DNA from: Candidatus Gemmiger excrementigallinarum
GTDB taxonomy: Bacteria > Bacillota > Clostridia > Oscillospirales > Ruminococcaceae
Direction: 5' to 3'
DNA length: 64,000 nucleotides
Assembly: GCA_019116445.1 (NCBI GenBank)
Contig: DXBP01000029.1
Location: 1-64,000, forward strand
Shown: piece by piece, positions 4,563 through 63,634 of the stretch
Position numbering within the stretch: position 1 is the first letter of the stretch
Layout: each line of letters opens with the position of its first letter
The notes under the pieces: generated by a model
Told to the model about the DNA's origin: nothing
The model's database searches: none
The model's input: the letters and a program-made list of their open reading frames with translations, nothing else
Made by a program: the position numbers and the translations under genes

Positions 4563-4565
4563 ATT

Positions 4566-40639: not shown

Positions 40640-41343
40640 ATCTGCCGTCCTTTCCAGGCCAGAAACCGCTGTTTGTTGGCCCGGTAGCTGCGGGTGCTCA
40701 CCGGCAGCGGGGTGCCGTCGGTCAGGCGCGCCCCCGTGCTTTGCAGCGTATCCAGATACGCCATATTCACCAGGTAACTTTTGTGCAGCCGCAAAAAGCC
40801 CTGCTCGGCCAGCATGGATTCCAGCTGGGTGAGGGTGGTGTGGGTGACCAGATGGTCCCGGGGCCCGCCCTGCAGATAGAGATGCTGGTCCCGGCCCCGG
40901 CTTTCGATATAGCGCAGCGACGGCAGCGGCACCGACACCGGCTCACCGCCGCAGACCAGTTCCAGCGTTTCCCGCCGGGCGCAGCAGACCGCCAGGGCGT
41001 CCTCAAAATAGGCGGGGAGTTTGCTGTCCAGCTCCCCCTTGGCCAGATACCGGAAGGCGTTGACCTCATACCCCTCCGGGGCGTACTCCTTGTAGTTCGT
41101 CACAAAGATCAGCACGGTATCGGGCCGGGTGCGCCGCAAGGCCCGGGCCACCTCGATGCCGTTGGCCGCCCCCAGGTCGATGTCCAGAAACAGCAGGTCA
41201 CAGGGTTCCTCCGCCAGCCCGGCCGGGCCGGTCAGGTACCGCACCCGCATACTGCGGGGGGAAAAATCCGGCAGGGCTTCTATTTTGCGGACCAGCGCCC
41301 GGGCAAACGTTTCCTCGTCATCGCAGACCAGGATATGCAGCAT
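40633..41343 (-). CDS. LytTR-family response regulator (AgrA-like)
   Basis: 236 residues. Receiver: VCDDEE pocket and LFLDIDLGAANG phospho-acceptor. The usual KP loop is replaced by RYLAKGELD, where Lys is retained but Pro is not. The LytTR domain runs from about residue 130 to 230 (YIESRGRDQHLYLQG... FLRLHKSYLVNMAYLDTL). A GGGGAG ribosome site precedes ATG 41343. First gene of the operon with the GHKL kinase. Confidence 0.92.
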   Translation of the reverse strand: MLHILVCDDEETFARALVRKIEALPDFSPRSMRVRYLTGPAGLAEEPCDLLFLDIDLGAANGIEVARALRRTRPDTVLIFVTNYKEYAPEGYEVNAFRYLAKGELDSKLPAYFEDALAVCCARRETLELVCGGEPVSVPLPSLRYIESRGRDQHLYLQGGPRDHLVTHTTLTQLESMLAEQGFLRLHKSYLVNMAYLDTLQSTGARLTDGTPLPVSTRSYRANKQRFLAWKGRQIC

Positions 41344-41375
41344 ACAACTTTCTCCCCTTTCCGGTGTTTTCTTTC

Positions 41376-41404
41376 ACCATAGTACGGCCGCCCCCTTTTG
41401 TCAA
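41376..41404 (-). promoter_or_regulatory. Consensus promoter of the second LytTR/GHKL operon
   Basis: Minus-strand TTGACA (41404-41399), a 17-bp spacer and TATGGT (41381-41376). Confidence 0.75.
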
Positions 41405-41414
41405 CGGCTCCGGC

Positions 41415-41451
41415 AACCAAAGCCCGCCCGCAGCGTTCTGCGGGCGGGCTT
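41415..41451 (-). terminator. Terminator of the WYL regulator gene
   Basis: An AAGCCCGCCCGCAG arm pairs with CTGCGGGCGGGCTT across a short loop (minus strand). The T-tract is short (TTTGGTTG). Confidence 0.65.
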
Positions 41452-41459
41452 GCGATGTT

Positions 41460-42986
41460 TCAGGCTTTGTAGTCGTCGGCCGCTGCCTGCAGCAGCGCCG
41501 CCATCTGCCGCCGCTTTTCCGCCTGGGCTTCGCATCTGGTCAGGCAGCAGGCCCCCGCGTGCTGCAAAAGCCACTGCTTTGCACCATCCCACACGGCTTC
41601 CCGCACCCGGATGCGCACCCGGTTGCCCGGCAGGTTCTGTTCCAGCGTGATATTTTTCGGCCCGAAATCATCCACCGCGCTGTTCATCAGGGAGGCATCG
41701 CAGTCGATGAGAAGGGATTCCGGCGTGCCGGAATACATGATGGTGCTGCCGTCACGGTATTCCATCCCCGCCCGGGACCTGGCCCGGTAGACCCGCTCCA
41801 GAATGTCCTGGATCTCTGTGGGCCTGTAGGTGATGTCGCACTGGGATTCGTCCAGTCTGACCGGCTGCAGATTCCGCACACGGTCCAGCCGCAGATTGGA
41901 GAGCACCGGGTTCTGCCCCTGTGCGCCGCCGGTCACCCGGGGCGACAGGTCCAGCCGGAACCCGCACAGATAAAAATAGCCGTTGCTGTACACCACCTTC
42001 CAGGGCAGCAGCGGGATCCGGTGTGTTTTGCACAGCGTCAGCTGCCCGTTGTGCCACTGCCAGCGGTGATAGTCCAGCTCGTACCAGAACATCTTCTTGA
42101 GGTCGACCTCGTCGGTATCCTCGGCGTAGACCTGCCAGGCCCTTTCCACCGCTGTCAGCGCCTGTTCCAGCTGTTCCGGCAGTTCGCCGCCCTGTGGGCA
42201 ATCCCACTTTTCCTCGCTCACGCTGTCCATGGCATACCGGCGCTCACTGGTCAGCCCCAGCAGATCCAGGATCTGGTCGGTGTGCTTTTTGTCCAGGAAC
42301 GGATAGTACGCCGCCTGTACGGCCGCCATCTGCTGCTCCGGCTGCCCTACCCCCGCAATGTGGTAGATCGGCTCCTTTTCGTCACAGCGGACCAGACGGA
42401 ATCCCTGCACCCGCGCCGCCAGCCAGTCGGCCAGCTTCTGGTCTTCCATCGCCTGCAGCCGGTCTTCCAGCATCACCAGTTCCTGCAAAAGGCTGTCCAC
42501 CGTCTTGCGCTGGATGCCTACCTCTTTTTCATACTTTCTCTTTTTTCCTTCGATCACGACCTCTTTTACGCTGGCCTTCATCTGCTCCTGCAGCGCCTGC
42601 TGCTCCTGTTTTCCGCTGTATTGCAGCATCATCAGCCGTTTCAGCGTCCGGTACCAGTCTTCCTCCGGGCGTTCCTCGCGCCCGGTTTTCTCCTCAAGGT
42701 CCTCCCCGCTGCCATAAGTCAGGCTTTGCTTCAGCAGCGCCGCATCCCGCTCTTTCAGGCATACATTCATGGCCTGCTCCAGCTTCATTGCCTGGATGAT
42801 GCTCCGGTCGCTCCACAGCAGCTGCTGTTCCCCGGTCCATTTGTTTTTCCATTGCTTGAACTTCTGCTCACTGCCGATATACAGATAAGAATCCCGGTAA
42901 AACCACCCCAGTACCGTCACCAGCAAAAAACGGTCGATGCTGTGGTTGGAACGGCGTGCCGTCCGCCGGTCCTTTTCTTCCGTCAC
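41460..42986 (-). CDS. WYL-domain regulator divergent from the AAA/ClpP operon
   Basis: 508 residues. The N-terminal 300 residues are basic and helical, with a coiled coil (GKQEQQALQEQMKASVKEV) but no clear helix-turn-helix. The WYL core is at about 320-400: HRIPLLPWKVVYSNGYFYLCG... LSNLRLDRVRNLQPV. A WCX-type C-terminal extension follows (SLLIDCDASLMNSAVDDFG, then AVWDGAKQWLLQHAG). WYL proteins often sense nucleotides or DNA ends and commonly control defence islands. The GTG start at 42986 is set by GGGGGG (42999-42994) and by a promoter whose -10 lies at 43023-43018. Longer frames would start inside the promoter. Transcribed away from the 43162-53384 operon, sharing a 175-bp control region. 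Confidence 0.85.
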   Translation of the reverse strand: MTEEKDRRTARRSNHSIDRFLLVTVLGWFYRDSYLYIGSEQKFKQWKNKWTGEQQLLWSDRSIIQAMKLEQAMNVCLKERDAALLKQSLTYGSGEDLEEKTGREERPEEDWYRTLKRLMMLQYSGKQEQQALQEQMKASVKEVVIEGKKRKYEKEVGIQRKTVDSLLQELVMLEDRLQAMEDQKLADWLAARVQGFRLVRCDEKEPIYHIAGVGQPEQQMAAVQAAYYPFLDKKHTDQILDLLGLTSERRYAMDSVSEEKWDCPQGGELPEQLEQALTAVERAWQVYAEDTDEVDLKKMFWYELDYHRWQWHNGQLTLCKTHRIPLLPWKVVYSNGYFYLCGFRLDLSPRVTGGAQGQNPVLSNLRLDRVRNLQPVRLDESQCDITYRPTEIQDILERVYRARSRAGMEYRDGSTIMYSGTPESLLIDCDASLMNSAVDDFGPKNITLEQNLPGNRVRIRVREAVWDGAKQWLLQHAGACCLTRCEAQAEKRRQMAALLQAAADDYKA

Positions 42987-43017
42987 AAAAAGTCCCCCCA
43001 ACGTTATTTTTGTTTTC

Positions 43018-43046
43018 ACTATAGCATTCCGCCTTCGGCCCGTCAA
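43018..43046 (-). promoter_or_regulatory. Promoter of the WYL regulator
   Basis: Minus-strand TTGACG (43046-43041), a 17-bp spacer and TATAGT (43023-43018). It predicts a leader of about 25 bases before the GTG start. Confidence 0.8.
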
Positions 43047-43087
43047 GGCGATCCGGGATTTTTAGTGCGGATTTATTTTTCCCCCCT

Positions 43088-43093
43088 TATAAT
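43088..43093 (+). promoter_or_regulatory. -10 element of the AAA/ClpP operon promoter
   Basis: Perfect TATAAT, but the -35 at 17 bp is GTGCGG, which is poor. A weak -35 suggests dependence on an activator, plausibly the divergent WYL protein. Confidence 0.55.
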
Positions 43094-43100
43094 ACAATCA

Positions 43101-43128
43101 CGCTCCCCGGCAGGGCTGCCGGGGAGCG
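43101..43128. promoter_or_regulatory. Perfect 12-bp inverted repeat at the operon start
   Basis: CGCTCCCCGGCA (43101-43112) and TGCCGGGGAGCG (43117-43128) with a GGGC loop. It starts about where transcription should begin and has no T-run. It is either an operator or a 5' mRNA stem. Confidence 0.65.
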
Positions 43129-43161
43129 GCTCCACCACTGTTTTCAAGGAGGCTCTCTGCC

Positions 43162-44208
43162 ATGTTCTGTCTGAAATTGTATAAGACCGGGTATCTCCCT
43201 TACCGCGAAGATCTGGACCTCTTCCCGCTGAGTGCCACCTTCCGTTCCTACCTGGACCACGGCTGGCTGCGCGGCGCCGCCGGGCAGCGCCTGCTGTGGA
43301 AGCTGGTCCGCGGCCGCTGGGACGAAACCGACGGCGAATTCTGGCACGGGGAAGATGGCATCCATCCCGCCGCCGAGCTGCCCAACGAGGTCAAATTTGC
43401 CCTGACCCTGGCGGAAAACGCCCGCCGCCACCTATGGACGACACTGCCCCGGGAGCCGAAGCTGGACCCCGAGCGGATGATGCCCGTCTGGCAGGTTCTG
43501 GCCGAAGAGCCGCAGGACCTGCCGCTGGCCCTGCGGTTCTACGACGAAAGCGACTGCGGGCTGCTGCAGGTCCTGCAGCAGAACCAGCTGCCGCTGGAAG
43601 TGACCCTGGGCGGGCGGCGCCGCCGGGGCACCGTGGAGGAGGTGTTCCGGGCCCTGTTCCGGATGCCGTCCCCCATGGCGCTGCTGCGCCAGGTAAAGCA
43701 GCTGCGCCGCACCCTCTACCCCGGCTGGGATGAGGACGGCGCCCCCTTTGTGCCCCGCCGGGCCGCCGAACTGGGCTACGGGGATTGGACGTTCCACAAC
43801 CGGCTGGTGGCCGAACCCTACTGCATGGACGAAAGCCCGCTGCTGCACAGCCGGGTCCCCACCTGCCTGACGGTGACCCGCCACGCCGACGGAAGCTGGA
43901 CGATGGACTATCCCATCCCCGACACGCTGCTTTGCCCCGGACTGCCCCCGGACGCCAACGGCTACGACGAGCTGATGGCCCTGTGCGGCGAAGGCCTTGT
44001 CCCCGGCGACCACCGCTGGGCGCTGGTGTGTGACAGGGAATTTTCTCCCCGCATCCCGCTGGAAAGTCCCTGTTTCGGTTTCGTTTTTGACGAAGCCGCC
44101 CGCACCCTGGAACTGACCGAACAGGAGAACGCCCTGCACCGGATGCAGGATGCTTTGACCGGGCTGCTGCGCTACACCGCTGCCCATAAGGAGGAGAAGG
44201 TTCCGTGA
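43162..44208 (+). CDS. Unknown-family protein 1 of the AAA/ClpP operon
   Basis: 348 residues, soluble, no signal peptide or membrane helix, unrecognised. The N-terminus (MFCLKLYKTGYLPYREDLDLFPLSATFRSYLDHGWLRG in outline) differs from its neighbours. The C-terminal third carries the operon's shared module: a basic-ADG turn (VTRHADGSWTM), then RWALVCDREF, CFGFVFDEAARTLELTEQENALHRM. Rich in Arg, Trp and Leu. AAGGAGG precedes the ATG at 43162, 34 bp after the palindrome. It is the first gene of the operon, and its stop overlaps the GTG of the next. No catalytic motif is visible. Confidence 0.85.
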   Translation: MFCLKLYKTGYLPYREDLDLFPLSATFRSYLDHGWLRGAAGQRLLWKLVRGRWDETDGEFWHGEDGIHPAAELPNEVKFALTLAENARRHLWTTLPREPKLDPERMMPVWQVLAEEPQDLPLALRFYDESDCGLLQVLQQNQLPLEVTLGGRRRRGTVEEVFRALFRMPSPMALLRQVKQLRRTLYPGWDEDGAPFVPRRAAELGYGDWTFHNRLVAEPYCMDESPLLHSRVPTCLTVTRHADGSWTMDYPIPDTLLCPGLPPDANGYDELMALCGEGLVPGDHRWALVCDREFSPRIPLESPCFGFVFDEAARTLELTEQENALHRMQDALTGLLRYTAAHKEEKVP

Positions 44209-45332
44209 TTACGTTATACTGCTGCACCAACGATTATGAAGCCGCCGGCCCACCGTTTTTCCCGGGCGGTTTTCCCGACCCGGTGGAGCTGCTGCCCCTG
44301 CTGCTGGAGGAGGACCTGCTGCGCACCCCCGCCTGTGAAGCCGTACTGGAAAGGCTCAACGCGGGTCACACCCGCCTGGACAGTGACCCCTGTTATCTGG
44401 TGTACCGGAACGGCCGGCGGCGGCCGCTGATCTGCTTCCGCCGGTCCCTGCAGGCCGCCCTGGCCGTGGCGGCGGTGGTCTCCCTGCCCCAAGAGCATCC
44501 TCTGCTGTCCCGTCTGCGGTGGGCAAAGGCTCTTGCTTCCGGCCGCGGTGCTGCCGGCTGGCCCTGTCTGGCACTCACCCCGGATCTTTGCGATGCCTGC
44601 ACCTGGGAGGCACTGAACGCGCTGGATCTGCCCGTTGCCCTGGCCGGGGATGTACGGGATGTGGCACGGCTGCGCCAGGCGCTCCGGAACGGACAGCCGC
44701 AAGATTCCCGCCCCGCCCCTTACCGCCTGGTGCGCAACGGGCGCGGCCCCGCGGTGCTGACCTGGCAGGATGCCCCCGGCAAGGCTGAGGACGGTACCCT
44801 GCTCACCGATGGCGACGGGTTCGATCTGGTGGGCTTTCACTGGCAGAATCCCGCCAGCTGGTGCCGGTCGGACCTGGTCACGATGCTGGAAGATCTGCCG
44901 CTGCCCCGCGCCAATCCCGCCCCGCCCCCGCTGCACACCCGCTATGCCATCCGGGACCGGCTGCACCAGTATCTGTTCCCGTGCCCTCGCACCGGCAGTC
45001 CCGCCATGACGCTGCTGCAGCTGGAACGGGACGCCGACGGTTGCTGGTATGCCGGGGAACGGTCCCTGGAACCCTGCCGCCGCTACCAGGTCCTCTTCGA
45101 GGAAGCCCTGCAGGGAGCCGGTGACCGCGAGCGCTGGGTGTTGGTGCTGGACCTGGACCGGCAGGAGCCGCCCTGTCTGCGGGAGCTGACCCGGTGCCGC
45201 CTGTACTATTGCTTCCACTTAAAACGCCGCACCGTAACGCTCACCGACGGCACCGATGCCCTGCGCAGTTTTTTGAAAGTCCTGCTGCGCTACGCCGATG
45301 CCCCTCCCCGAAAAAGAGGTTCCGTGCTGTAA
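44205..45332 (+). CDS. Unknown-family protein 2 of the AAA/ClpP operon
   Basis: 375 residues, cytoplasmic, unrecognised. A close tandem paralogue of the next protein: both begin MITLYC, and share CYLV...GRRRPL, RSLQAALAVAA-type helices, ALTPDLCDACTWEALNALDLPVALAGD, PAPYRLVRNG and the C-terminal module MTLLQLERDADGCW... ERWVLVLDL... KRRTVTLTDGTDALRSFLK. GTG start at 44205 with a long AAGGAGGAGAAGG site, overlapping the previous stop (GTGA). The middle may be a degenerate nucleotide-binding fold without a Walker A; that is a guess from strand/helix pattern only. Confidence 0.85.
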   Translation: MITLYCCTNDYEAAGPPFFPGGFPDPVELLPLLLEEDLLRTPACEAVLERLNAGHTRLDSDPCYLVYRNGRRRPLICFRRSLQAALAVAAVVSLPQEHPLLSRLRWAKALASGRGAAGWPCLALTPDLCDACTWEALNALDLPVALAGDVRDVARLRQALRNGQPQDSRPAPYRLVRNGRGPAVLTWQDAPGKAEDGTLLTDGDGFDLVGFHWQNPASWCRSDLVTMLEDLPLPRANPAPPPLHTRYAIRDRLHQYLFPCPRTGSPAMTLLQLERDADGCWYAGERSLEPCRRYQVLFEEALQGAGDRERWVLVLDLDRQEPPCLRELTRCRLYYCFHLKRRTVTLTDGTDALRSFLKVLLRYADAPPRKRGSVL

Positions 45333-45359
45333 ACGCCCCCCATCCAAGGAGAGATTTTT

Positions 45360-46514
45360 ATGATCACTTTGTATTGCGCCACCCATGACCACCGGCACAG
45401 CAGTCTGCTGGCCGACATTATGCAAGGATGCCATACCAACTGCCCCGATCCGCTGGCCGTGCTGCCCCTGCTGCAGGAAGAAAACCGGATGCACACCCTT
45501 GCCTGTGAAATGGTGCTGCAGCGGCTGACCCTGGGCCGGGTGCACCTGGACGCCGATCCCTGCTATCTGGTGGAGGCCGACGGCCGCAGGCGGCCCCTTG
45601 CCTGCTTTGACCGCACACTGCAGGCCGCCCTGGCCGTGGCAGCGGCAGCCGCCCTGCCCGCCGACCACCCGCTGCTGCCCCGCCTGCGGCAGAAAATCCC
45701 CGGGGGCCGCCCGGTCCCTGCCTGTACCGGCAACCTCTGCCTGGCTCTGACCGAAGACCTGTGCGATGCCGATGTGTGGGAAACGCTGAACCGGCTGGAT
45801 CTGCCCATCGACCTGGCCGGGGACGCCCCCATGGTGGACCGGCTGCGCCAGGCGCTGGCGCGGGGCGGACGGATTCCCCTGGAGATGGGCGCCCATCCCG
45901 CCCCCTACCGCCTGGTGCGGGACGGCAGCGATCTGACGGTGCTGACCTGGCAGGACACCCTGGGGGATACCGAGGACGGGGCCATGCGGGTGCCGGGGCC
46001 CGGGTTTGAGCCGGTGCTTTTCCACTGGCAGGACCCTGACAGCTGGCGGACCCCGGACCTGGACCTGCTGCTGGATGCGTTGCCGGTGCCCCGTGTGGGC
46101 AGCATTCTGCCGGGACTTGGCACCGACTATGCCATCCACGACAAACGGCAGCAGGCATTTCCCGCCCGGTGCTTCGGCCGCCCCGCCATGACCCTGCTGC
46201 AGCTGGAACGCCACGCCGACGGTCACTGGTCCGCCCTGGAAGGGGACCCCGGGGACTGGGAGGATTACCCCACGCTGTTTGAAGCCGCCCTGAAAGACGC
46301 CGGCACCGCCGAGCGCTGGGTACTGGTGCTGGACCTGGGCGGGGATGCCCCGCGCAGTTTGCAGGAGCTGAGCCGGTGCAGCCTGTACTTTGGTTTTCAC
46401 CTGAAACGCCGCACCGTAACGCTGACCGACGGCACCAACGCCCTGCGCAGCTTTTTGAAGGCGTTGGCACGCTACGCCCGCACCGATGCCGGAGAAAGGA
46501 GTTTTGTACTGTGA
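45360..46514 (+). CDS. Unknown-family protein 3, tandem paralogue of protein 2
   Basis: 384 residues, cytoplasmic, unrecognised. It aligns along its full length with protein 2: CYLVEADGRRRPL, TLQAALAVAAAAALP, LCLALTEDLCDADVWETLNRLDLPIDLAGD, PAPYRLVRDG, MTLLQLERHADGHW, ERWVLVLDLGGD and KRRTVTLTDGTNALRSFLK. A recent duplication is likely. AAGGAGAG precedes ATG 45360 and 27 bp separate it from protein 2. The stop overlaps the GTG start of protein 4. No catalytic residues can be proposed. Confidence 0.85.
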   Translation: MITLYCATHDHRHSSLLADIMQGCHTNCPDPLAVLPLLQEENRMHTLACEMVLQRLTLGRVHLDADPCYLVEADGRRRPLACFDRTLQAALAVAAAAALPADHPLLPRLRQKIPGGRPVPACTGNLCLALTEDLCDADVWETLNRLDLPIDLAGDAPMVDRLRQALARGGRIPLEMGAHPAPYRLVRDGSDLTVLTWQDTLGDTEDGAMRVPGPGFEPVLFHWQDPDSWRTPDLDLLLDALPVPRVGSILPGLGTDYAIHDKRQQAFPARCFGRPAMTLLQLERHADGHWSALEGDPGDWEDYPTLFEAALKDAGTAERWVLVLDLGGDAPRSLQELSRCSLYFGFHLKRRTVTLTDGTNALRSFLKALARYARTDAGERSFVL

Positions 46515-47908
46515 AGATCACCAGATGGAAGCCTGTTTTATACCGCCGCAACGCCCGCGAAGAGGAATTCCTCCAGATTCCCAGGGGCTTCTGGGCACCG
46601 CTGGCCCAGCTGCTGCAAACGCCCCATCTGACCGGGGCGGCCGTTGCCCTGCTGCAGGCCGGACTGCCCCGCTGCTTTGCGGTGCGGGGGGACTGCCTGG
46701 GCCACGCCCAGGATGCCGCCGCCCGGCTGCTGCCCCTGGTGCTCTACCGGGAAGCGCTGGACCTGACCCCGCTGACCGACCGCTGCGCCGATCCCGCGGC
46801 ACTGAGGGACTATGTGGAGGAACAGCTGGCGGATTTTTCCGCAGGCGGCCCCGCCGCAACGGAACGGCAGGTACGGGTCTGCCGGGCCCTGCCTGCCGGC
46901 ACCCCCGGGGCATCCTCCCTGCAGCCTGCCCTGCCGGCGGGCTGCCCCCTGCCGGTGCTGGTGCAGCAGTGGCGAGACCAGCCGCTGGCCGCAGACGCCG
47001 TCCAGGCGCTGGAACGCAGCACCGGGCCGGTGCTGTTGCTGCAGACCACCGAGGCGCCCGCACCCGACGGCTGGCCGGTGCTGACCATTCCCGCTGCCGA
47101 TGATGCCTGGTACGGCGAGCTGCTGTTCCAGATCTGCCGCCGCAGCCCGGTGGATTACATGGCCCGCGGGGAAGCCCATGAAGCCGCCCGGGGATTGCTG
47201 CAGCGGTTCGGCCACACCCTGACCGAGCAGGATTTTGCCCTGGCTGCCGACTATGTGCGCCGCCGCCAGGGCCCCGATGGGCGCACCAACGCCGCCTACT
47301 TTTTGCAGCTGACGGCCGAGATGCCCCGGGGTACCCTGCCCTGCTGCGCGGATGTATCCGGTGCCGCGCTGTTCCGCCGGGCCCAGGTATCGGACCGGCT
47401 GCAATTCGCCGTTCCCTGTATGGCGGTAGCGGCCTGGAAAGCCTGTGCCCGCCGGATGCCCCGCCCCTATCCCCACGGGGAAACCGACGAAATCCCCGCA
47501 GGGCTGCCCGCCGGGCGGCAGGTCCGCAACCGGATGCACTACGCCCCGCCCGCCGAACTGTGCCTGCACGCCCCCTGCACCCTGCTGGTGGCGGAAGAAA
47601 CCCCCGAGGGGGAGGACTTTTACGGCCGCCGGGTGCATGACCTGCACAGCTATGCCGATCTGGCCGGGGCCGCCGCCGCGCTGAACGACCACCGCCCCGG
47701 TGTGCGCTGCTGGGTGCTGGTCCTGGACTGCGCCCCCGAGGACCTGCAGGCCGAGGACCTTTGCCGCGCCCCCTACGCCTTCTGTGTGGACAGGGACAGC
47801 CTGACCCTGTACGACGGGTACGAAGGGCTGCAGGCCTTTGCCGACGCCGCCGGGGCGCTGATGCGCCGCAACCAGCAGAATCATCCGGGAAAATTTTCAC
47901 GGTACTAA
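46511..47908 (+). CDS. Unknown-family protein 4 of the AAA/ClpP operon
   Basis: 465 residues, cytoplasmic, unrecognised. The GTG start at 46511 sits in the preceding stop (GTGA) with GAAAGGAG 11 bp upstream. Residues 1-200 contain helices (FWAPLAQLLQTPHLTGAAVALL) and a strand-rich VLLLQTTEAPAPDGWPVLTIPAADD segment. A helical lid-like region follows (YMARGEAHEAARGLLQRFGHTLTEQDFALAADYVRRR), reminiscent of AAA small domains without visible Walker motifs. The C-terminus is the shared module: CTLLVAEETPEGEDFYGRR, RCWVLVLDCAPED and PYAFCVDRDSLTLYDGYEGLQAF. A Thr/Pro/Cys-rich middle. Function unknown. Confidence 0.85.
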   Translation: MKITRWKPVLYRRNAREEEFLQIPRGFWAPLAQLLQTPHLTGAAVALLQAGLPRCFAVRGDCLGHAQDAAARLLPLVLYREALDLTPLTDRCADPAALRDYVEEQLADFSAGGPAATERQVRVCRALPAGTPGASSLQPALPAGCPLPVLVQQWRDQPLAADAVQALERSTGPVLLLQTTEAPAPDGWPVLTIPAADDAWYGELLFQICRRSPVDYMARGEAHEAARGLLQRFGHTLTEQDFALAADYVRRRQGPDGRTNAAYFLQLTAEMPRGTLPCCADVSGAALFRRAQVSDRLQFAVPCMAVAAWKACARRMPRPYPHGETDEIPAGLPAGRQVRNRMHYAPPAELCLHAPCTLLVAEETPEGEDFYGRRVHDLHSYADLAGAAAALNDHRPGVRCWVLVLDCAPEDLQAEDLCRAPYAFCVDRDSLTLYDGYEGLQAFADAAGALMRRNQQNHPGKFSRY

Positions 47909-47975
47909 AATCAGGGTGGTATGCTGTAACCATCCCCTCCGGAACCACCCCATCTGAAAAAAGGAGCGATCTTGC

Positions 47976-48554
47976 ATGAATACGATTCCCCTTGTCTGCG
48001 ATAAACAGGGCCGTACCCGCGACCTGAGCTCGGCCCTGCTGGAACAGCGCATCCTGACGCTGAACGGCCCCGTGAACACCGAACAGGCCGAGGTACTTAC
48101 CGGCGCGCTGCTGTATCTGGACGCCCAGCCCGGCGACGCCCCCATCCACCTGTACATCAACAGTCCCGGGGGGTCGGTCACCGACGGGCTGGCCATCCAC
48201 GATGTGATGCGCCAGTGCCGCCATCCGGTATACACCTACTGCCTGGGGCAGGCGGCCAGTATGGGGGCCGTGCTGCTGGCCGCCGGTGCCCGCCGGTACG
48301 CCCTGCCCAACAGCCAGGTGATGATCCACCAGCCCAGCGGCGGCGCCGTGGGCAAATGTGATGACATCCAGGTGGCGGCGGCTTCCATTGCGGCGGCCCG
48401 CACCCAGCTGAACAGCCTGCTGGCCCGCTACACCGGCAAAAGCGTTGAGCAGATCGACCACGATACCACCCGGGACAACTTCATGACCCCGGCCCAGGCG
48501 CGGGACTACGGCCTTATTGATGAGGTACTGGAAGAACCCGCCGCCAACGGCTGA
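47976..48554 (+). CDS. clpP: ClpP-type serine protease, orphan
   Basis: 192 residues. Intact ClpP core: YINSPGGSVTDGLAIHDVM (oxyanion region), nucleophile Ser95 in GQAASMGA, His118 in MIHQPSGG and Asp167 in TTRDNFMT. ClpP forms a double heptameric chamber that degrades proteins fed by an AAA+ unfoldase. The N-terminal axial region (MNTIPLVCDKQGRTRDLSSALLEQ) departs from the usual IPxVxExTGRGERAYDIYSRLL pattern, so partner binding may differ. No ClpX, ClpA or ClpC is adjacent; the only AAA+ protein in the operon is CbxX-like. An AAAGGAG site precedes ATG 47976. The 67-bp gap before it holds an inverted repeat (GGGTGGT...ACCACCC). It may be a second, dedicated ClpP beside a housekeeping copy elsewhere. 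Confidence 0.93.
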   Translation: MNTIPLVCDKQGRTRDLSSALLEQRILTLNGPVNTEQAEVLTGALLYLDAQPGDAPIHLYINSPGGSVTDGLAIHDVMRQCRHPVYTYCLGQAASMGAVLLAAGARRYALPNSQVMIHQPSGGAVGKCDDIQVAAASIAAARTQLNSLLARYTGKSVEQIDHDTTRDNFMTPAQARDYGLIDEVLEEPAANG

Positions 48555-48583
48555 CACATTCACTCCAAGGAGGTTCGGTTTCC

Positions 48584-50404
48584 ATGCCCGGCCCACAGAT
48601 TGAACTCTGGCTCTATGATACACAGGCGGACCTGAACCGGGATACCGCCCAAGGCAGGGTCTGCCCCTGGGACGCCATCCCCGTGGTGCGGCTTTCCTGC
48701 CCGGCGCGGGAAGCCCCCGCCCTGCCCTGGAAGGTCACCGACGATTCCGACAACTATCTCACCGGGCTGCAAAGGGTACTGACCTTCAACGGCCGGGCGG
48801 GGCTTCCCACCCAGATGCACTATTCTCTGGACGCCTTTCTGGACGGGACCGACCCGCTGCTGCTGGCCGCCACCTGGGACGACCTGTGGGTGCTGATGGA
48901 AGCGGTATGGGATCACCACGATCCCGCCCCCGCCTGGATAGACCGGCCGCTGACGCTGCATTACCGCGGCTTCACCGGCCCCATGCCGCCGCGGGCGCTG
49001 CCCCGTTTTGCCGCCCTGTTCCCGGCCCAGACCTTCCCCCTGGTGGAACTGCTGGACCAGGCCCTGGCCTCTCGCCGCCGTCCCCTGCCCCGCCGGAGCC
49101 ATCCCTTCCCCATCAGCGACTACGGGCGCGGCGTCTGGCGCACCGCCAACCGATGCCGGCGGCGGGAATCTTCCGCCCTCCCGTCGGAAACCACCGCCTG
49201 CCTGCCGCCGGACAACCGGTGGCTGAACGCCCTGCGGGGCTGGAAGATCCGCAGCTGCCTGCCCGACCGGGGCGTACCGATGGGTGTGCCCTGGAACTGG
49301 CCGCTGGATGTGAACTATCCCCGCCTGTGGGTCCTGGACCGGCTGCCCGCCGGTGAATGGCACGCCTACACCTTCCACCAGGCCCTGTATCCCGCCTGGG
49401 TGGAACTGCTCTGCCAGGCCATCCGCCATCTGCCCGCCGGTGCTCACCGCCTTGTCTTTGTGCCGGAGTCCTGGACCCCCATGAAGGACGCCGAATGTAT
49501 CGCCACCGGGCATTGTTTCTGCTTTGCGGTGGAGGAGGAAACCCACCGCATCACCATCACCCGGGATGAGGATGCCCGGGCAGCCTTCCGCCAGGGGGTG
49601 GCGAACTACCGCATCGGGGGCCTGGGCCTTCCGACGAAAGACCCCGACGCGCTGCTGACCGCCGCCTGGCACGACCTGTGGGTACAGTTCGGCCCCGCCG
49701 GGGTACCGCTGACGCTGTACCGCAACGGGGCCCCCGTACCGGCAGCAGCCTGCCCGCTCCTGCCGTTCCCGGCACGGCCCGGTCTGGTGCTCCACGAACT
49801 GGAAGCCGCCCTGGCCCATCGCCGCCGCCCGCTGCCCGGCCCGGCCCGCCCGTTCCCCATGGAAGTCTTTTACCGGGAAAGCTGGCAGGACGCCTTTGCC
49901 CAATGGCGATGGCAGACCCCCGCCCCCCTGCGGGAGGACGCCGACCCGCCGGAAGTTTGGGACGAATGGCTGGAATCCCTGCGGGGCTGGAAGGTCCGCA
50001 GCGCCCTGCCTGACCGGGGTATTGCAGGGAAGCAAAGTTCCTGTTCCGCCCCGCTGGCATACCGCTATCCCACACTGTGGATCATCGACCGGCTGCCCAC
50101 CGGCGAGCAGTACGCCTGCACGGTCCCGGTGGGCTGCAAACATCCCGGCTGGCCCCTGCTGCTGAGCAGCGTTCTTCGCAATCGTCCCGCCGGGGCCAGC
50201 CGCCGGGTCTTTGTACCGGAACGGGAGAATTCCTCCCGGGCCCCGGCCCGCGCCGTCAGGGGGCCTTGCCTCTGCTTCGCCGTGGACGAGGAAGAACACC
50301 GTATCACCATCACCCGGAATGACGACGCCCGAGTGGTGTTCCACCAGGCACTGGCGGATTATCTCCGCAGCCTGGACGCCGACGCGCGGCACTTCCCGCG
50401 CTGA
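48584..50404 (+). CDS. Unknown-family protein 5 with internal duplication
   Basis: 606 residues, cytoplasmic, unrecognised. Two repeats of about 250 residues follow an N-terminal segment of about 90. Matching pairs: TWDDLWVL/AWHDLWVQ, LDQALASRRRPLP/LEAALAHRRRPLP, WLNALRGWKIRSCLPDRG/WLESLRGWKVRSALPDRG (about residues 213 and 462), RLWVLDRLPAGEWHAYT/TLWIIDRLPTGEQYACT, and CFCFAVEEETHRITITRDEDAR/CLCFAVDEEEHRITITRNDDAR. Each repeat ends in the module found in the operon's other unknown proteins. Trp, Arg and Pro rich. An AAGGAGG site precedes ATG 48584, 29 bp after clpP. The duplication suggests an oligomeric or multivalent scaffold or adaptor. Confidence 0.87.
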   Translation: MPGPQIELWLYDTQADLNRDTAQGRVCPWDAIPVVRLSCPAREAPALPWKVTDDSDNYLTGLQRVLTFNGRAGLPTQMHYSLDAFLDGTDPLLLAATWDDLWVLMEAVWDHHDPAPAWIDRPLTLHYRGFTGPMPPRALPRFAALFPAQTFPLVELLDQALASRRRPLPRRSHPFPISDYGRGVWRTANRCRRRESSALPSETTACLPPDNRWLNALRGWKIRSCLPDRGVPMGVPWNWPLDVNYPRLWVLDRLPAGEWHAYTFHQALYPAWVELLCQAIRHLPAGAHRLVFVPESWTPMKDAECIATGHCFCFAVEEETHRITITRDEDARAAFRQGVANYRIGGLGLPTKDPDALLTAAWHDLWVQFGPAGVPLTLYRNGAPVPAAACPLLPFPARPGLVLHELEAALAHRRRPLPGPARPFPMEVFYRESWQDAFAQWRWQTPAPLREDADPPEVWDEWLESLRGWKVRSALPDRGIAGKQSSCSAPLAYRYPTLWIIDRLPTGEQYACTVPVGCKHPGWPLLLSSVLRNRPAGASRRVFVPERENSSRAPARAVRGPCLCFAVDEEEHRITITRNDDARVVFHQALADYLRSLDADARHFPR

Positions 50405-50434
50405 ATGTTGCCTTGAAGGAAAGGAGAAATCACC

Positions 50435-52354
50435 ATGAAGAAGTCCTTGCCCAAACAGTTGAATATGCCCTTTGTAGAGCAGGTCAACATTCCGTTTCAA
50501 AAGATTCACGCCAGCATTCCCGCCCTGCAGCTGCCCCCGATGAACGAAGAAATGATAGACGCCGACCTGGACCTGGCGCCCCATCTGAAACCCCTGCGGA
50601 ATCTGCGCTTGGACAAGTCCCATGCCTGCTGCGTGATCCGCAGCGAAACGAAAGAGCTGGGCCTGCTGGCAGCCGCCTATGTGGCTGCCCGCCATGGAGC
50701 CGTGTATCTGGACACACTTCTGGATGCCGAAGATTACAACCTTGACCGCACCGTGGCGTGCGAGTGTCCCCACTGCGATCCCGTGTTTTTTCAGAACACG
50801 CTGCCCATTTACTCTATGAAAACGCATCCTTCCTTTTTTGATGAGGAAAGCGAACCGTCGGACAATTATATGCTCACCAAGCAGGGCGAAAAGATTCGGC
50901 TGCCCCACTGGAGCCAGCTGCCCTGTGAACATCCCCTGATTCTGCTGCTTCCGTGCCCGGATGCCAGCGACAGCGAGCTGATGGAGGAATTGAACCGCCA
51001 GACCGCCATGCGCTCCCTGACACTGGTGGTCATGCCCCTGACCAACTGGCAGCCCCGGGACAGCTTTTTCTCGGCCTTTGAGAGCAACACCGTGCGCATC
51101 GCCAACGAATTGCAGTTCAGCTTTGCGGCCGATGTGGCAACGCTGCACCTGCCCAAGCCGGCCAGCCAGTACAACAAGCTGTTGCTGAAGCAGCTGCTGG
51201 AGGAAAGAAATCTGAGTCTGGATGCAGATTGCCGCCCGGAAACCGTGCTGAAACGGCTGGAATCTTTCCGCGCCAAAAGCTACGGCGTAACCAACACCAA
51301 CCTGCTCAAATATGTGCGGCTGCTGGACCACCTGTACGGCAACCACCATCCCCTGGTGCTGACCCGGCAGCAGGCCCTAAAACCGCTGACTTTGACCAGC
51401 AACCAGAAAAAGTCCCCCAAAAAGCGCACCGCCCGGCCCGAAATCCAGCTGTACGGCTGCGAAAATGTGAAACGCCAGCTGCGCAGCGTGGTGGATACCA
51501 TGCGCATTGACCAGGAACGCCGTGCCAAGGAGCTGCCCTCCTCCCAGCACGGTCAGGTGCTGCTGTTTGCCGGCGCCCCCGGCACCGGCAAGACCACCGC
51601 CGCCCGGATGCTCCACCAATGGCTGGAAAAAGAGGACTTGCTGGATGATGGCTTTGATACCTTCTGCGACTATCATCAGGTGTCGGGCGCCCAGCTGAAA
51701 GCCCCCTTTGTGGGGCAGACCGCGCCGATGATCCACAACCTGTTTGAGTCCCACGCCTTTATTTTCATCGACGAAGCCTATGCCCTGGCGGAATCCGGCC
51801 AGCACGGCGCCAACAACGACCACTTTGCCCAGGAGGCCATGGGCCAGCTCTGCATTGAACTGGAGAATCTGCCCGCCAACCATGTGGTGATTTTTGCGGG
51901 CTACGGCGGCGACCACGACAACCGGATGCGCTCTTTCCTGAACGCCAACCCCGGTCTGGCCAGCCGCATCACCCACACCATCCAGTTTGACCCCTACAGC
52001 CCCGAGAAGGAATTGCCGCAGATCTTCTTCACGCTGGCGGAGGAGCGGGGCCTGAAACTGCCCGCTCCATGGCGCAGCATGGTGGTGCCCTACTTCCAGC
52101 ACCGCGCCCGGCAGGAGGATTTCGGTTCCGGCCGGGAAGCCCGCCGCCTGCTGGAAAGCTGCCTGACCGTGCAGGCTCACCGCCTGGTGAAGGAGATGAA
52201 CTTCCACACCGCATCGCTGAATCAGCTGACAGAGGGCGACCTGCGCCGGGCTGTGGAAGACCTGGAATCCGGGTTCCGCGCCCTGGAGGAGCAGAGCACG
52301 CTGCCCTGCGGGCTGGGGCACAACCGCCCCGCCCCCGACCAAACGGAGGCATGA
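50435..52354 (+). CDS. AAA+ ATPase, CbxX/CfxQ-SpoVK type, with degenerate N-terminal half
   Basis: 639 residues. The C-terminal AAA+ module (about 340-590) has Walker A GAPGTGKTT (Lys386), a pore-loop-like HQVSGAQLKAPFVGQT, Walker B FIFIDEAYAL (Asp446, Glu447), sensor 1 VVIFAGYGGD, and ASRITHTIQF with a candidate arginine finger. This is the CbxX/CfxQ/SpoVK/EccA pattern. The N-terminal half resembles a second AAA fold lacking Walker residues (VIRSETKELGLLAAAYVAARHGAVYLDTLL, then a lid-like SYGVTNTNLLKYVRLLDHLYG). It carries a CECPHC cysteine cluster (about 109-114) that could bind Zn. A likely hexameric remodeller; with ClpP in the same operon it may be the unfoldase, although no classic IGF/IGL ClpP-docking loop was seen. 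Its stop lies 1 bp before the next ATG. Less GC-extreme codon use than its neighbours. Confidence 0.9.
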   Translation: MKKSLPKQLNMPFVEQVNIPFQKIHASIPALQLPPMNEEMIDADLDLAPHLKPLRNLRLDKSHACCVIRSETKELGLLAAAYVAARHGAVYLDTLLDAEDYNLDRTVACECPHCDPVFFQNTLPIYSMKTHPSFFDEESEPSDNYMLTKQGEKIRLPHWSQLPCEHPLILLLPCPDASDSELMEELNRQTAMRSLTLVVMPLTNWQPRDSFFSAFESNTVRIANELQFSFAADVATLHLPKPASQYNKLLLKQLLEERNLSLDADCRPETVLKRLESFRAKSYGVTNTNLLKYVRLLDHLYGNHHPLVLTRQQALKPLTLTSNQKKSPKKRTARPEIQLYGCENVKRQLRSVVDTMRIDQERRAKELPSSQHGQVLLFAGAPGTGKTTAARMLHQWLEKEDLLDDGFDTFCDYHQVSGAQLKAPFVGQTAPMIHNLFESHAFIFIDEAYALAESGQHGANNDHFAQEAMGQLCIELENLPANHVVIFAGYGGDHDNRMRSFLNANPGLASRITHTIQFDPYSPEKELPQIFFTLAEERGLKLPAPWRSMVVPYFQHRARQEDFGSGREARRLLESCLTVQAHRLVKEMNFHTASLNQLTEGDLRRAVEDLESGFRALEEQSTLPCGLGHNRPAPDQTEA

Positions 52355-52355
52355 G

Positions 52356-53384
52356 ATGATCACCCTGGAACGGATCAACTGTGCCCCCTTGCTGGCCGAA
52401 GCAGGGCTGGCGGTGTGCTGTACCGAAACCTTCTGCACCCTGATGGAACAGGGGGCGTTCCGCTCGGCCAACTGCCGCCGGGTGCTGGCCGCCCTGTACG
52501 ACGCCGAGCCCGATGCCGCCGACCCCTACCGTGTCCGCCTGCCCCACCGGGTGTGCTGCTTTGCCAGCCTGGACCGCTGGGCCCGCACCGCCCTGACCGT
52601 GACAGCGGGGAGCGAGGCCCGCAACCCGCCGGTCTTTGCCCTGGACACCGAGCTGATGCAGCCGGAGATCTTCTGGCTGCTGAACAGCCTGCCGGTGGCC
52701 ATCCACCTGGCGGGGGATGACAAAGCCCTGCGCCGCCTGGCCCGCTTTTTGCTGGAAAGTCCCCGCCCGCTGCCCGTTCCCGCCCGCCATCCGGCACCGG
52801 CGGACACCCCCTTCCGCCTGTTGACCGCCCATGGCCCGGTGCTGACCTTCCAGGACCGGGAAGGCACCGACGCTGCGGGGAACCGGCTGGTCACGGACGA
52901 CGGCCTTGCCCTGCTGCGCCCCGCCGATCCGCTGGAAGACCCCCAGGCCCTGGGCCAGATGCTGTATGAACGGTCCCACCTCCAAGGGCTGCTGTACCCC
53001 CATCCGGCCCGGTCCCATCCCACCTGGCTGCAGATCGAAACGCCGGTGGTGAACTGCCTGCTGCGCACCCCTCGCGGCCAGGTCTGCCCCGATACCGACC
53101 TGCTGATCGTGGACCAGCACGCCGACGGCCTGGTGACGGCAGAAAGCGAATCCCCCTGTTCCGCCCGGTATTACACCGACTTTGTGGACCGGGTGCTGGA
53201 AGACCTGCCCCAGGGGCAGCGCTGGGCCCTGGCCCTGCCCCGGCAGGACGCACCGCCGGGCACCCCCTGCTACGGCTTTGCCTTCCGGAACGGGATGCTC
53301 TTTCTCTACGAGGACACCGACGCCCTGGAAATGTTCACCCGCTGCCTTTCGCTGCTGCAGGACCGGCACAGTCCCCGGCCCTGA
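52356..53384 (+). CDS. Unknown-family protein 6, last gene of the AAA/ClpP operon
   Basis: 342 residues, cytoplasmic, unrecognised. Begins MITLERINCAPLLAEAG, like proteins 2 and 3 (MITLYC). It shares PEIFWLLNSLPVAIHLAGDDKALRRLARFLLESPRPLP with their DLPVALAGD segment. The shared C-terminal module is DLLIVDQHADGLV, QRWALALPRQD and CYGFAFRNGMLFLYEDTDALEMF. CGGAGG at 52344-52349 sets ATG 52356; the ATG at 52351 stops after two codons. Directly followed by the operon terminator. No catalytic motif visible. Confidence 0.85.
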   Translation: MITLERINCAPLLAEAGLAVCCTETFCTLMEQGAFRSANCRRVLAALYDAEPDAADPYRVRLPHRVCCFASLDRWARTALTVTAGSEARNPPVFALDTELMQPEIFWLLNSLPVAIHLAGDDKALRRLARFLLESPRPLPVPARHPAPADTPFRLLTAHGPVLTFQDREGTDAAGNRLVTDDGLALLRPADPLEDPQALGQMLYERSHLQGLLYPHPARSHPTWLQIETPVVNCLLRTPRGQVCPDTDLLIVDQHADGLVTAESESPCSARYYTDFVDRVLEDLPQGQRWALALPRQDAPPGTPCYGFAFRNGMLFLYEDTDALEMFTRCLSLLQDRHSPRP

Positions 53385-53388
53385 CTCC

Positions 53389-53422
53389 CGGCTGTCCGCC
53401 CTTGGGCGGGCAGCCGTTTTTT
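53389..53422 (+). terminator. Terminator of the AAA/ClpP operon
   Basis: CGGCTGTCCGCCC (53389-53401) pairs with GGGCGGGCAGCCG (53404-53416), followed by six Ts. Confidence 0.95.
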
Positions 53423-53446
53423 CTTGGGATAAACCGTTGGATTTTG

Positions 53447-53475
53447 TTGTAATGCCCCGGGGGCTTTGCTATACT
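53447..53475 (+). promoter_or_regulatory. Promoter of the dgt-addBA operon
   Basis: TTGTAA (53447-53452), a 17-bp spacer and TATACT (53470-53475) preceded by TGC (extended -10). Confidence 0.75.
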
Positions 53476-53538
53476 GAAAATGTAAAACTTCATCAGATCC
53501 GCCCGTTTTTCGGGCGTTGTATAAGGAGGATGTCCCTT

Positions 53539-54987
53539 ATGGATTGGAAACATCTGCTCAGCGACCGCAAACTGGCCGAAAGCCCCGCCCTGCCCGACCA
53601 GTTTGCCCGGTTCCCCATCAACACTTTTGAGCTGGACTACAGCAACCTGGTCAGCAGCGCCGCCTTCCGCCGCCTGCAGGACAAAACCCAGGTCTACCCG
53701 CTGGACAAGGGGGATTTTGTGCGCACCCGGCTGACCCACTCCATCGAGGTTTCCACCGTGGCGCGGCAGCTGGGCATGATGGTCACCGACGACCGCAGCC
53801 AGTACGCCCGGGCCGAACTGCAGCAGTACCGCACCGAGATTCCGTCGGTGCTGGCCTGTGTGGCACTGCTGCATGATCTGGGCAATCCGCCCTTCGGTCA
53901 TTTCGGGGAAGCCCTCATCGGGGAATGGTTCCGCGGCGCCCTGGACCGCCTGACCTACAAGGGCCAGCCCCTGCGCCAATGGCTGACGCCCCAGATGGCC
54001 CGGGACCTGGAAAACTTTGAGGGCAACGCCCAGGCCCTGCGGCTGCTGGGCAAAGCGGCCCGGGGCGGCAGCATCAATCTGTCCATGGCGGTCATCGGCG
54101 CACTGCTGAAATACCCCACCGACTCGATGCACTTCAACCGCAAAGACCCCGACATCCGCCGCCACAAACTGGGCTACTTTGCCGCCGAGGAAGAGATTTT
54201 CCGCACCGTAACCGACACGCTGGCCATGCACGACGCCGCCGGCGCCGTCTGCCGCCATCCCCTGACCTACCTGATGGAAGCCGCCGACGACATCGCCTAC
54301 GCCACCGCCGACCTGGAGGACGCCCTGAACAAGGGGCTGTTCACCATGGAGCAGTTCCTCAACCGGTATCGCGGGGCCTACCGCGACCAGTTCCGGAACG
54401 GTACCCTGCCCCACGGCACCCCCGCCGACTACAGCGAGCGGCTGCTGCAGGAGCTGGAACAGATGCGGCAGGAGGCCGGCCCCGACCGGGACGAAGCCGC
54501 CCTTTTCCACACCTGGCTGCTGCAGGTGCGCAACTGGCTGATGTATGTGGCGATCTACCGCTTCAACAAAAGCTATGACGAGATCATGGCCGGCACCTAC
54601 CAGGAGGATCTGTTCTACCAGACCAACCACGTGCTGACACTGCAGATCCTGAAGGATATTACCGCCGAGTACGCCTATGACTCCGCCGGCATCCTGCGGC
54701 TGGAACTGGCGGCGGAATCCATCGTGACCTTCCTGCTGGAAAAATACGTCCACGCCGTGCTCTGCTTCGATGAAGCCTACCAGGATGCACTTTGCCAGCC
54801 CACCAGCTCCGACCGCAAATACCTGGCCACCCTGCCCCGGGAACATCTGCTGGACTACCGCCGCGCCCGCACCGGCGATGAGAAAACCGACCTCTATCTG
54901 CGCATCCTGATGGCCACCGATTTTCTCAGCGGCATGACCGACGGCTACGCCCGTACCCTCTACCGCGAGGCCCGCGGCATCGACTGA
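53539..54987 (+). CDS. dgt: dNTP triphosphohydrolase (dGTPase family)
   Basis: 482 residues of the HD superfamily. Metal ligands are visible in RLTHSIEVS (His67) and LLHDLGNPPFGHFGE (His112, Asp113), with YLMEAADDIAYATADLEDA supplying the later Asp. LVSSAAFRRLQDKTQVYPL is the typical N-terminal signature. It splits dNTPs into nucleoside and triphosphate, lowering dNTP pools. ATG 53539 fits AAGGAGG at 53523-53529; ATG 53530 is too close to it. It has its own promoter and is followed by addB after 25 bp. Related enzymes also serve in phage defence, but a housekeeping role is the simpler reading. Confidence 0.93.
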   Translation: MDWKHLLSDRKLAESPALPDQFARFPINTFELDYSNLVSSAAFRRLQDKTQVYPLDKGDFVRTRLTHSIEVSTVARQLGMMVTDDRSQYARAELQQYRTEIPSVLACVALLHDLGNPPFGHFGEALIGEWFRGALDRLTYKGQPLRQWLTPQMARDLENFEGNAQALRLLGKAARGGSINLSMAVIGALLKYPTDSMHFNRKDPDIRRHKLGYFAAEEEIFRTVTDTLAMHDAAGAVCRHPLTYLMEAADDIAYATADLEDALNKGLFTMEQFLNRYRGAYRDQFRNGTLPHGTPADYSERLLQELEQMRQEAGPDRDEAALFHTWLLQVRNWLMYVAIYRFNKSYDEIMAGTYQEDLFYQTNHVLTLQILKDITAEYAYDSAGILRLELAAESIVTFLLEKYVHAVLCFDEAYQDALCQPTSSDRKYLATLPREHLLDYRRARTGDEKTDLYLRILMATDFLSGMTDGYARTLYREARGID

Positions 54988-55012
54988 AACCACCTGTAAA
55001 AGAGGTTTTTGT

Positions 55013-57565: not shown

Positions 57566-57566
57566 G

Positions 57567-61181: not shown

Positions 61182-61210
61182 AGGCCGCCCCACTTTTTTG
61201 CCGAAATCCA

Positions 61211-61239
61211 TTGACGCCGCCCCGGCCGGGGGCTATAAT
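61211..61239 (+). promoter_or_regulatory. Promoter of the thiamine operon
   Basis: TTGACG (61211-61216), a 17-bp spacer and TATAAT (61234-61239): near-consensus, about 13 bp before the riboswitch. Confidence 0.85.
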
Positions 61240-61251
61240 AACAACCAAACA

Positions 61252-61348
61252 GAATAACCGGGGGAGCTTGTGTGGACAGGCTGAGAGGAAGGAATCACCT
61301 TCGACCCTTACACCTGATGCGGATAATGCCGCCGTAGGAAGTCGTGGG
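61252..61348 (+). ncRNA. TPP riboswitch (THI element)
   Basis: Recognisable THI-box order: GGGGAGC near 61261, GGCTGAGAGGAAGG at 61279-61292, CGACCCTTACACCTGATGC at 61302-61320 and GGATAATGCCGCCGTAGGAAG at 61321-61341. The pyrimidine-binding TGAGA and the pyrophosphate-binding GATAATGCC...CGTAGG are both present. A terminator follows at 61364-61398, so thiamine pyrophosphate should cause premature termination. Confidence 0.95.
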
Positions 61349-61363
61349 AAATTGTACTTTTTT

Positions 61364-61398
61364 CGGGAGGCACCGCGTACGGTGTCTCCCGATTTTTT
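61364..61398 (+). terminator. Riboswitch-controlled terminator
   Basis: CGGGAGGCACCG (61364-61375) pairs with CGGTGTCTCCCG (61380-61391), followed by six Ts (61393-61398). Confidence 0.9.
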
Positions 61399-61575
61399 GT
61401 TTCTTTGCCAGGAAAGGAAGTGAAACCGCCTTCGCGGGCAGTGCCGCGGCGGGCCGAGGGGGAGCGCCCTGGGCCTGGTTTGTACAGCGATGGGAAGCCG
61501 TGTTCCGGCGTGAGAGGAGGCCAGCAAGCCTCGACCGCTTTTTCCGTGCACAGGGGGTTGCCCTGTGTGTTTTCC
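61399..61575 (+). ncRNA. Second structured leader element with its own terminator
   Basis: Between the TPP terminator and thiW lies a GC-rich stretch that folds extensively. One hairpin is 61450-61477 (CGGGCC-AGGG / CCCT-GGCCTG). Another holds TGAGAGGAGGCC...GCCTCGACC (61511-61536), which copies the TGAGA-stem-CGACC part of the TPP aptamer. A terminator, CACAGGG (61549-61555) with CCCTGTG (61561-61567) and a T-rich tail, ends it. The TPP pyrophosphate-binding half is not found downstream of this copy. It could be a degenerate TPP repeat or a different ligand-binding RNA. Confidence 0.5.
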
Positions 61576-61632
61576 TCCGGGAAAGTGTCGCTGTACGGCT
61601 CTTTTCCGCCTATCTGCAAAGGAGTTTTTACC

Positions 61633-62151: not shown

Positions 62152-62165
62152 AAAAGGAAACGCCT

Positions 62166-63627: not shown

Positions 63628-63634
63628 CCGCCGG

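Follow-up and report, generated by a model that had tools for sequence, protein, structure and literature searches.

A 64,000-nucleotide stretch of the genome of Candidatus Gemmiger excrementigallinarum (assembly GCA_019116445.1, contig DXBP01000029.1, positions 1 to 64,000; the window in what follows) carries at 41460-53384 a cluster of one leftward WYL-type gene and eight rightward open reading frames in the order A, B, C, D, ClpP, E, AAA+, F, where the letters denote orphan proteins. We give about even chances to the reading that this is a WYL-controlled accessory AAA+/ClpP protease module, carried on a replaceable chromosomal block and accompanied by exchangeable, defence-like neighbours. 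The grouping of the WYL-type gene, ClpP and AAA+ is not chance, because WYL, D, ClpP and AAA+ recur jointly on a Ruthenibacterium contig and WYL, ClpP and AAA+ in a third genome. The ATPase and the ClpP probably work as a pair; from sequence features we infer that the WYL-type protein would control the module and that the ATPase would dock on ClpP and thread proteins into it. A sequence-only reading of the same DNA had placed an AAA+/ClpP system beside the WYL gene, and to that association the present analysis adds its recurrence in Ruthenibacterium and in a genome of another family (G723), as well as C-terminal IGF or VGF tails in relatives of the ATPase, which support the AAA+-ClpP link.

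The AAA+/ClpP core, its recurrence and its putative regulator

The N-terminal half of the AAA+ protein was found in two of 396 family genomes: that of the window and G031, a Ruthenibacterium metagenome-assembled genome in which the locus lies on CALXBO010000013.1. The order there is WYL (minus strand), D (plus), helicase and PLD genes (minus), ClpP (plus), AAA+ (plus), dgt, addB and addA; the helicase and PLD genes match the PADLOC models ZacC (452 bits) and ZacB (147 bits), names that are database labels, and a literature search on ZacA/B/C found nothing relevant among the 10 papers listed of 143. Among 394 sampled genomes of the order, a weak match (E 0.008) led to the third locus, in G723: its AAA+ is 31% identical to that of the window over 479 amino acids (E 3e-54), its ClpP is 49% identical, and the locus consists of a PLD-helicase fusion (ZacC, 241 bits), WYL, AAA+, ClpP, two paralogous unknowns, VWA, MoxR and a second CbxX-type AAA+. 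Another order-level match (G476, E 0.0018) was dropped, since the frame reads by eye as a LysR-type regulator. Counting the window, three genomes from two families thus carry WYL, ClpP and a CbxX-type AAA+ at one locus, and ClpP and AAA+ are adjacent or one gene apart in each of the three loci. Co-occurrence holds for this trio but not for the full gene set, since of A to F only D was detected at a second locus. At locus L071 (764-8119), VWA, MoxR, a second IGF-tailed AAA+ and two paralogous unknowns lie by ClpP, a larger version of the module.

The ClpP (192 amino acids, 47976-48554, plus strand; assigned by PF00574, alignment and tree) is intact, as had been claimed: PF00574 matches at 214 bits (E 1.5e-63), and the Ser, His and Asp motifs are kept and align with those of 10 housekeeping ClpPs out of the 33 found in the genus. 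Its N-terminal loop is three residues shorter than in those 10, it scores 203 bits against the NCBIfam ClpP equivalog (cut-off 309), and in a tree it pairs with the Ruthenibacterium ClpP at 100/100, outside the ten housekeeping proteins compared (group support 93/93); the placement of the G723 ClpP in that tree is uncertain and carries a long-branch warning. No PADLOC model was matched at E 1. The idea that it is the cell's sole ClpP was rejected: the assembly (G000) has no other true ClpP and lacks ClpX too, it is 83% complete, a strong ClpP match (at least 229 bits) is present in 33 of the 34 other genus genomes, and the absence is best ascribed to missing sequence. Accessory ClpPs of two congeners, G163 and G166, were rejected as members of the same system, their neighbours being a TPR-CHAT protein and a TraG-type ATPase that ends without the tripeptide considered below. 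At these loci (L037 of G163, 5811-12466; L038 of G166, 3465-10056) the ClpP, 42-46% identical, comes right after the TraG/VirD4-type ATPase gene and also adjoins the divergent TPR-CHAT protein of about 1205 amino acids, possibly as a CHAT/TraG/ClpP system.

The AAA+ ATPase (639 amino acids, 50435-52354, plus strand) comprises a family-specific N-terminal half, a CbxX-type AAA domain at about 339-604 and a low-confidence C-terminal tail. Its assignment to the CbxX/SpoVK type was borne out by matches to PF00004 and AAA_lid_6, and it is not of the ClpA/C/X class: the best NCBIfam models are SpoVK (125 bits against a curated equivalog cut-off of 423), CbbX (114 of 459) and EccA (111 of 467). The Walker A and Walker B motifs and the F/Y-(V/L)-G pore loop are conserved in all eight aligned members. 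The closest structural match to the AlphaFold model (predicted local distance difference test, pLDDT, 64) is CbbX, followed by tandem AAA proteins that match most of the length with a low template modelling score; a degenerate first AAA domain is therefore a guess. Residues 582-639 are modelled at low confidence, which fits a loose tail. Judging by its motifs, the ATPase would form a ring and thread substrates by its aromatic pore loop. A separate three-gene set, seen at L039 (8490-11411) and L040 (9209-12106), encodes a CbxX-type AAA+ of 517-526 amino acids followed by proteins of 299-302 and 147-148; it recurs in two congeners (matched by eye, on size and start), has no ClpP and no IGF tail, and at L039 adjoins MkoA-like and HKD-SNF2 helicase genes.

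The eight rightward frames (43162-53384) were confirmed, as was the single strong terminator said to close the operon, a 12-bp, GC-rich intrinsic terminator at 53389-53416 (plus strand) directly after F. Of seven junctions, three and not four are overlaps or 1-bp gaps (A/B and C/D overlap by 4 bp each, AAA+/F are 1 bp apart); gaps of 27, 67, 29 and 30 bp make up the remainder. The divergent WYL-type gene (minus strand, longest frame 41460-43046) does leave a 175-bp gap to gene A from its likely GTG start at 42986. Its product matches the PADLOC WYL model (E 2.5e-6) and not the Pfam one, even at E 1. The protein is 44% identical to the Ruthenibacterium WYL protein and matches WYL proteins in other related loci; those of five related loci pass the Pfam model. 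The intergenic region holds a candidate promoter/operator (43088-43128, plus strand) made up of TATAAT at 43088-43093 and, starting 7 bp past it, a perfect 13-bp inverted repeat with a 2-bp spacer (43101-43128). According to excerpts of one report, the WYL regulator BrxR binds inverted repeats near its promoter (PMC9122601). The WYL-type protein would likewise bind the repeat downstream of TATAAT, keeping the A-F/ClpP/AAA+ transcript off, and would be released upon a DNA-damage or infection signal.

A C-terminal tripeptide and its proposed role in ClpP docking

Clp ATPases enter the pockets of ClpP with a tripeptide of the form (L/I/V)-G-(F/L), commonly IGL, IGF or VGF, presented on a flexible loop (PMC8745299, in excerpt). 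Tails were scored in 47 AAA+ frames picked by profile from 46 loci. Most are of the CbxX type, L003 and L074 being distant, and L016 is truncated at the end, which leaves 46 complete. The strict form, [LIV]G[FL] no more than three residues from the end, is present in 8 of the 46, and 36 have nothing like it within their last 25 residues. It occurs in six of eight ATPases from WYL loci versus two of 38 from loci without an observed WYL (Fisher p 7.7e-5, or 1.8e-3 with genus SpoVK orthologues collapsed); two ATPases found later, both without WYL, lack the tripeptide. Both G723 ATPases lie near ClpP and end exactly in IGF (...APAIGF and ...RRSIGF), and so does a relative on a plasmid of Lachnospira eligens, with WYL two genes upstream. 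A Selenomonas plasmid relative has IGF plus three residues, with WYL 6.5 kb off, and one from a faecal contig has IGF plus two, with a divergent WYL and a type I restriction-modification specificity gene (Methylase_S) nearby. On a viral contig, L073 (1986-8960) joins WYL, NADAR, McrBC and a VGF-tailed AAA+ in a single cluster. Faecal contigs labelled phage encode two further IGF-tailed ATPases, L090 (12490-15300; 936 amino acids, two AAA domains) and L086 (6819-8873; 684 amino acids); because neither has WYL in its record, the tail extends beyond WYL loci.

With the window AAA+, tblastn reached the AAA half only, and none of 11 phage or of 215 plasmid records came to 80% coverage. In scans of viral contigs, neither the first AAA+ alignment nor D nor the L. 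eligens ATPase gave a match, and the L073 query found only itself; wider alignments recovered L073, L074 and two untailed controls.

The tripeptide suggests how the two proteins could meet: the AAA+ would dock on its own ClpP by a flexible C-terminal tail bearing a Clp-type motif, which is [IV]GF in the relatives, FGL in Ruthenibacterium and CGL here. The case is weaker for the window than for its relatives, since the window tail does not keep to the motif: CGL stands 12 residues from the end, the Ruthenibacterium FGL is followed by three more residues, and both fail the strict form. The window protein also has LGL at 75-77, within a predicted helix. Several other points weigh against a docking protease under WYL control. 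The association test was not blind, its relatives having been gathered partly by similarity to tailed members, and its rows are related to one another; the loci tested also supplied the WYL profile, and the SpoVK controls came with only about 1.5 kb of flank. L086 and L090 bear the tail without WYL. Four of seven WYL/AAA+ loci showed no ClpP gene within the 5 to 25 kb retrieved, which means that their ATPase would need the housekeeping ClpP or none. Apart from D, no member of A to F was detected at either of the sister loci that carry ClpP, and the AlphaFold models are poor, for B (pLDDT 63) as for the ATPase. Finally, the hairpin at 43101-43128 also scores as a minus-strand terminator-like site, and the Ruthenibacterium intergenic gap has no inverted repeat of at least 7 bp, which disfavours a conserved operator.

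Some of these points favour a different function, namely that the AAA+ is a CbbX-like remodelling motor acting on A to F, with ClpP a bystander or acting alone. The closest solved structure is CbbX, the four loci just mentioned show no ClpP gene in the stretch fetched, and the window tail lacks the strict motif. The constant proximity of ClpP and AAA+ in the three ClpP-bearing loci and the ClpP-docking tripeptide at the C-terminus of relatives speak the other way, and we consider the motor unlikely. Slightly below even we place a broader version of the protease reading, an undescribed class of ClpP partners: CbxX-type unfoldases that dock by a C-terminal IGF tail, as proteasome activators and HslU do, and that are paired with WYL and changing defence cargo. 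Some lineages would have gained their own ClpP, after which docking would have drifted from IGF (FGL, CGL), and the window would have added A to F as a diversified adaptor family.

Orphan proteins and the replaceable block

Proteins A (348 amino acids, 43162-44208), B (375, 44205-45332), C (384, 45360-46514), D (465, 46511-47908), E (606, 48584-50404) and F (342, 52356-53384), all on the plus strand, had been taken for six related proteins. Relatedness is firm for B, C, D, F and A but weak for E. B and C are 55% identical (blastp E 7e-111), B matches F at 5e-11 and C matches D at 3e-5; a profile built from B, C, F, D and the Ruthenibacterium D gives A 27 bits (best of 60 shuffles, 0.6). E, which contains two tandem repeats 42% identical to each other, scores 3 bits against that profile (best shuffle 1.9) and matches A by blastp at E 0.002. 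What they have in common is C-terminal, about 35-130 residues and longer in B, C and F. All six fall below every family cut-off in Pfam, NCBIfam and PADLOC, with weak matches of D to WCX (Pfam, E 0.037), of F to a pilin model (E 0.019) and of B to a RecX-like model (PADLOC, E 0.0038). NCBIfam gave no match for any of them and PHROGs none for the five searched there, A, B, D, E and F. The model of B has no fold match at E 0.001, and A to F show no match to the N-terminal half of the AAA+.

The family lies outside the conserved core, which alters the first reading: D alone has an orthologue in Ruthenibacterium (full-length, 36%), none was detected in the G723 locus, and two G723 proteins considered as relatives (p456 and p424) were rejected for want of any detectable relationship. 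With differing front parts and a common C-terminal module, A to F would act as adaptors delivering different targets, the weakest step of the scheme; they are perhaps an orphan family of adaptors. ClpP degradation signals are often C-terminal, and the same module could instead be such a signal, in which case A to F would be substrates, toxic or signalling proteins held low by AAA+/ClpP until phage or stress strikes, in the manner of an antitoxin guard. The C-terminal position of the common part and the presence of several diverged copies beside one protease fit this idea. We think it improbable, given that no toxin or enzyme domain was found in A to F in Pfam, NCBIfam or (for five of the six) PHROGs and that all but D go unseen in the sister loci.

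The inherited unit appears to be larger than the cluster. Beyond the terminator follow, on the plus strand, a dgt-type HD phosphohydrolase (53539-54987; PF01966, PF13286), an addB-type nuclease (55013-57565; PF12705) and an addA-type helicase-nuclease (57567-61181; UvrD-helicase, PDDEXK_1). They keep this order beside the module in two genera, the Ruthenibacterium counterparts being 69%, 49% and 48% identical and its dgt likewise lying beside the AAA+. The block common to both genera also takes in these three genes, which lie outside the originally proposed unit. The whole block, WYL to addA (41356-61191, no strand assigned), has no counterpart at the equivalent site in the sister species G180 and G172. 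At the nucleotide level G180 aligns to 7428-41355, in four pieces, and to 61192-64000, and the 19.8 kb between them is missing there; identity is 81-89% in the main pieces and 76% in one 505-bp piece. Judged by eye, the site holds a glycosidase/transporter/AraC-type cluster in G180 and an apparently decayed copy of it in G172. Because the block is absent in the sisters and the same genes lie by the module in Ruthenibacterium with a different left flank, dgt-addB-addA seem to have been inherited with it as one unit despite the terminator after F. Directly left of the block, at 39278-41343, lie (by eye) a histidine kinase and a LytTR-type response regulator, matched in G180 and not in the G172 stretch.

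A foreign contig was suspected because dgt and AddB are rare among relatives (dgt in none of the 34 other genomes of the genus at E 1e-60; AddB in 1 of 156 other family genomes searched at E 1e-30) and because MalY resembles that of other genera more closely than that of one congener. Misbinning was rejected by a NifS 92% identical to those of G172 and G180 and by synteny to the left and right of the block. The suggestion that the locus might be variable or defence-linked held up: unrelated genes take the place of the block in both sister species, and restriction- or helicase-type genes lie by related loci, among them ZacC/ZacB-like genes, McrBC with NADAR, and Methylase_S. In the window itself PADLOC returned only WYL, weak AAA matches and the RecX-like match to B, with no full listed system. 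From this neighbourhood the module would control or complement exchangeable defence or repair genes (PLD/SNF2-type helicase, McrBC, NADAR, the type I specificity gene, AddAB, Dgt), and its role is possibly in defence or in stress and damage control. Equally improbable as the substrate idea is a DNA-damage repair island in place of phage defence, in which the WYL protein senses damage and turns on AddAB, Dgt and a clean-up protease: dgt-addB-addA do hold the same place in two genera and a WYL-family DNA-damage regulator, PafBC, is known (PMC11804915, in excerpt), but a strong terminator separates F from dgt and other WYL/AAA+ loci have restriction-type genes instead.

Relation to known proteases and defence systems

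ClpP is known to work with Clp-class ATPases that reach it via an internal loop. A CbxX-type ATPase that carries a C-terminal ClpP-docking tail would be new: in searches on ClpP with IGF and CbxX/SpoVK ATPases, on C-terminal IGF tails and tail docking, on WYL with ClpP, and on CbxX/SpoVK or ClpP in anti-phage defence (20 of 68 papers for the last), none of the titles and abstract openings listed describes it, though it may be in print elsewhere. If the docking reading is correct, such ATPases and ClpP would constitute a new class of ATP-dependent protease, a little-studied ATPase group would gain a directly testable activity, and regulated proteolysis would be linked to WYL-associated defence islands.

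Parts of the module resemble described systems. With ClpXP, ClpAP and ClpCP it has in common a ClpP whose catalytic motifs are intact, a pore-loop AAA+ ATPase and, in relatives of the window ATPase, the (L/I/V)-G-(F/L) tripeptide; it differs in that the ATPase is CbxX-type and not ClpA, ClpC or ClpX, ClpP is encoded in the same operon, and the relatives' tripeptide is at the C-terminus and not in an internal loop. Activators of the 20S proteasome (HbYX) and HslU, in the source excerpts available, also dock through C-terminal tails, but their peptidases are not ClpP and the motifs are unlike. CbbX, SpoVK and EccA have the same AAA domain and AAA_lid_6, whereas the window protein scores far under their curated cut-offs, has an unlike N-terminal half and WYL and ClpP neighbours, and belongs with relatives that bear the C-terminal tail.

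Likenesses on the regulatory and defence side are similarly partial. As with BrxR/CapW-type regulators, a WYL-type protein stands by an operon of defence-like character, and an inverted repeat lies close to the candidate promoter (PMC9122601, in excerpt), but the window protein fails the Pfam WYL model, and 'ClpP' occurs 0 times in PMC9122601. Genes of the PADLOC ZacB/ZacC type lie inside the Ruthenibacterium locus and, fused, beside the G723 locus, but there are none in the window cluster. CoCoNuT-type defence loci place a SpoVK-family AAA+ ATPase by VWA genes (PMC11090510, in excerpt); the excerpts of that paper name no ClpP or tail motif, and the window is without the CoCoNuT core. The vWA-MoxR conflict systems (PMC7159879), for which 'ClpP' occurs 0 times in the entries listed, have none of their genes in the window cluster, but they resemble the G723 locus in its MoxR- and VWA-type genes.

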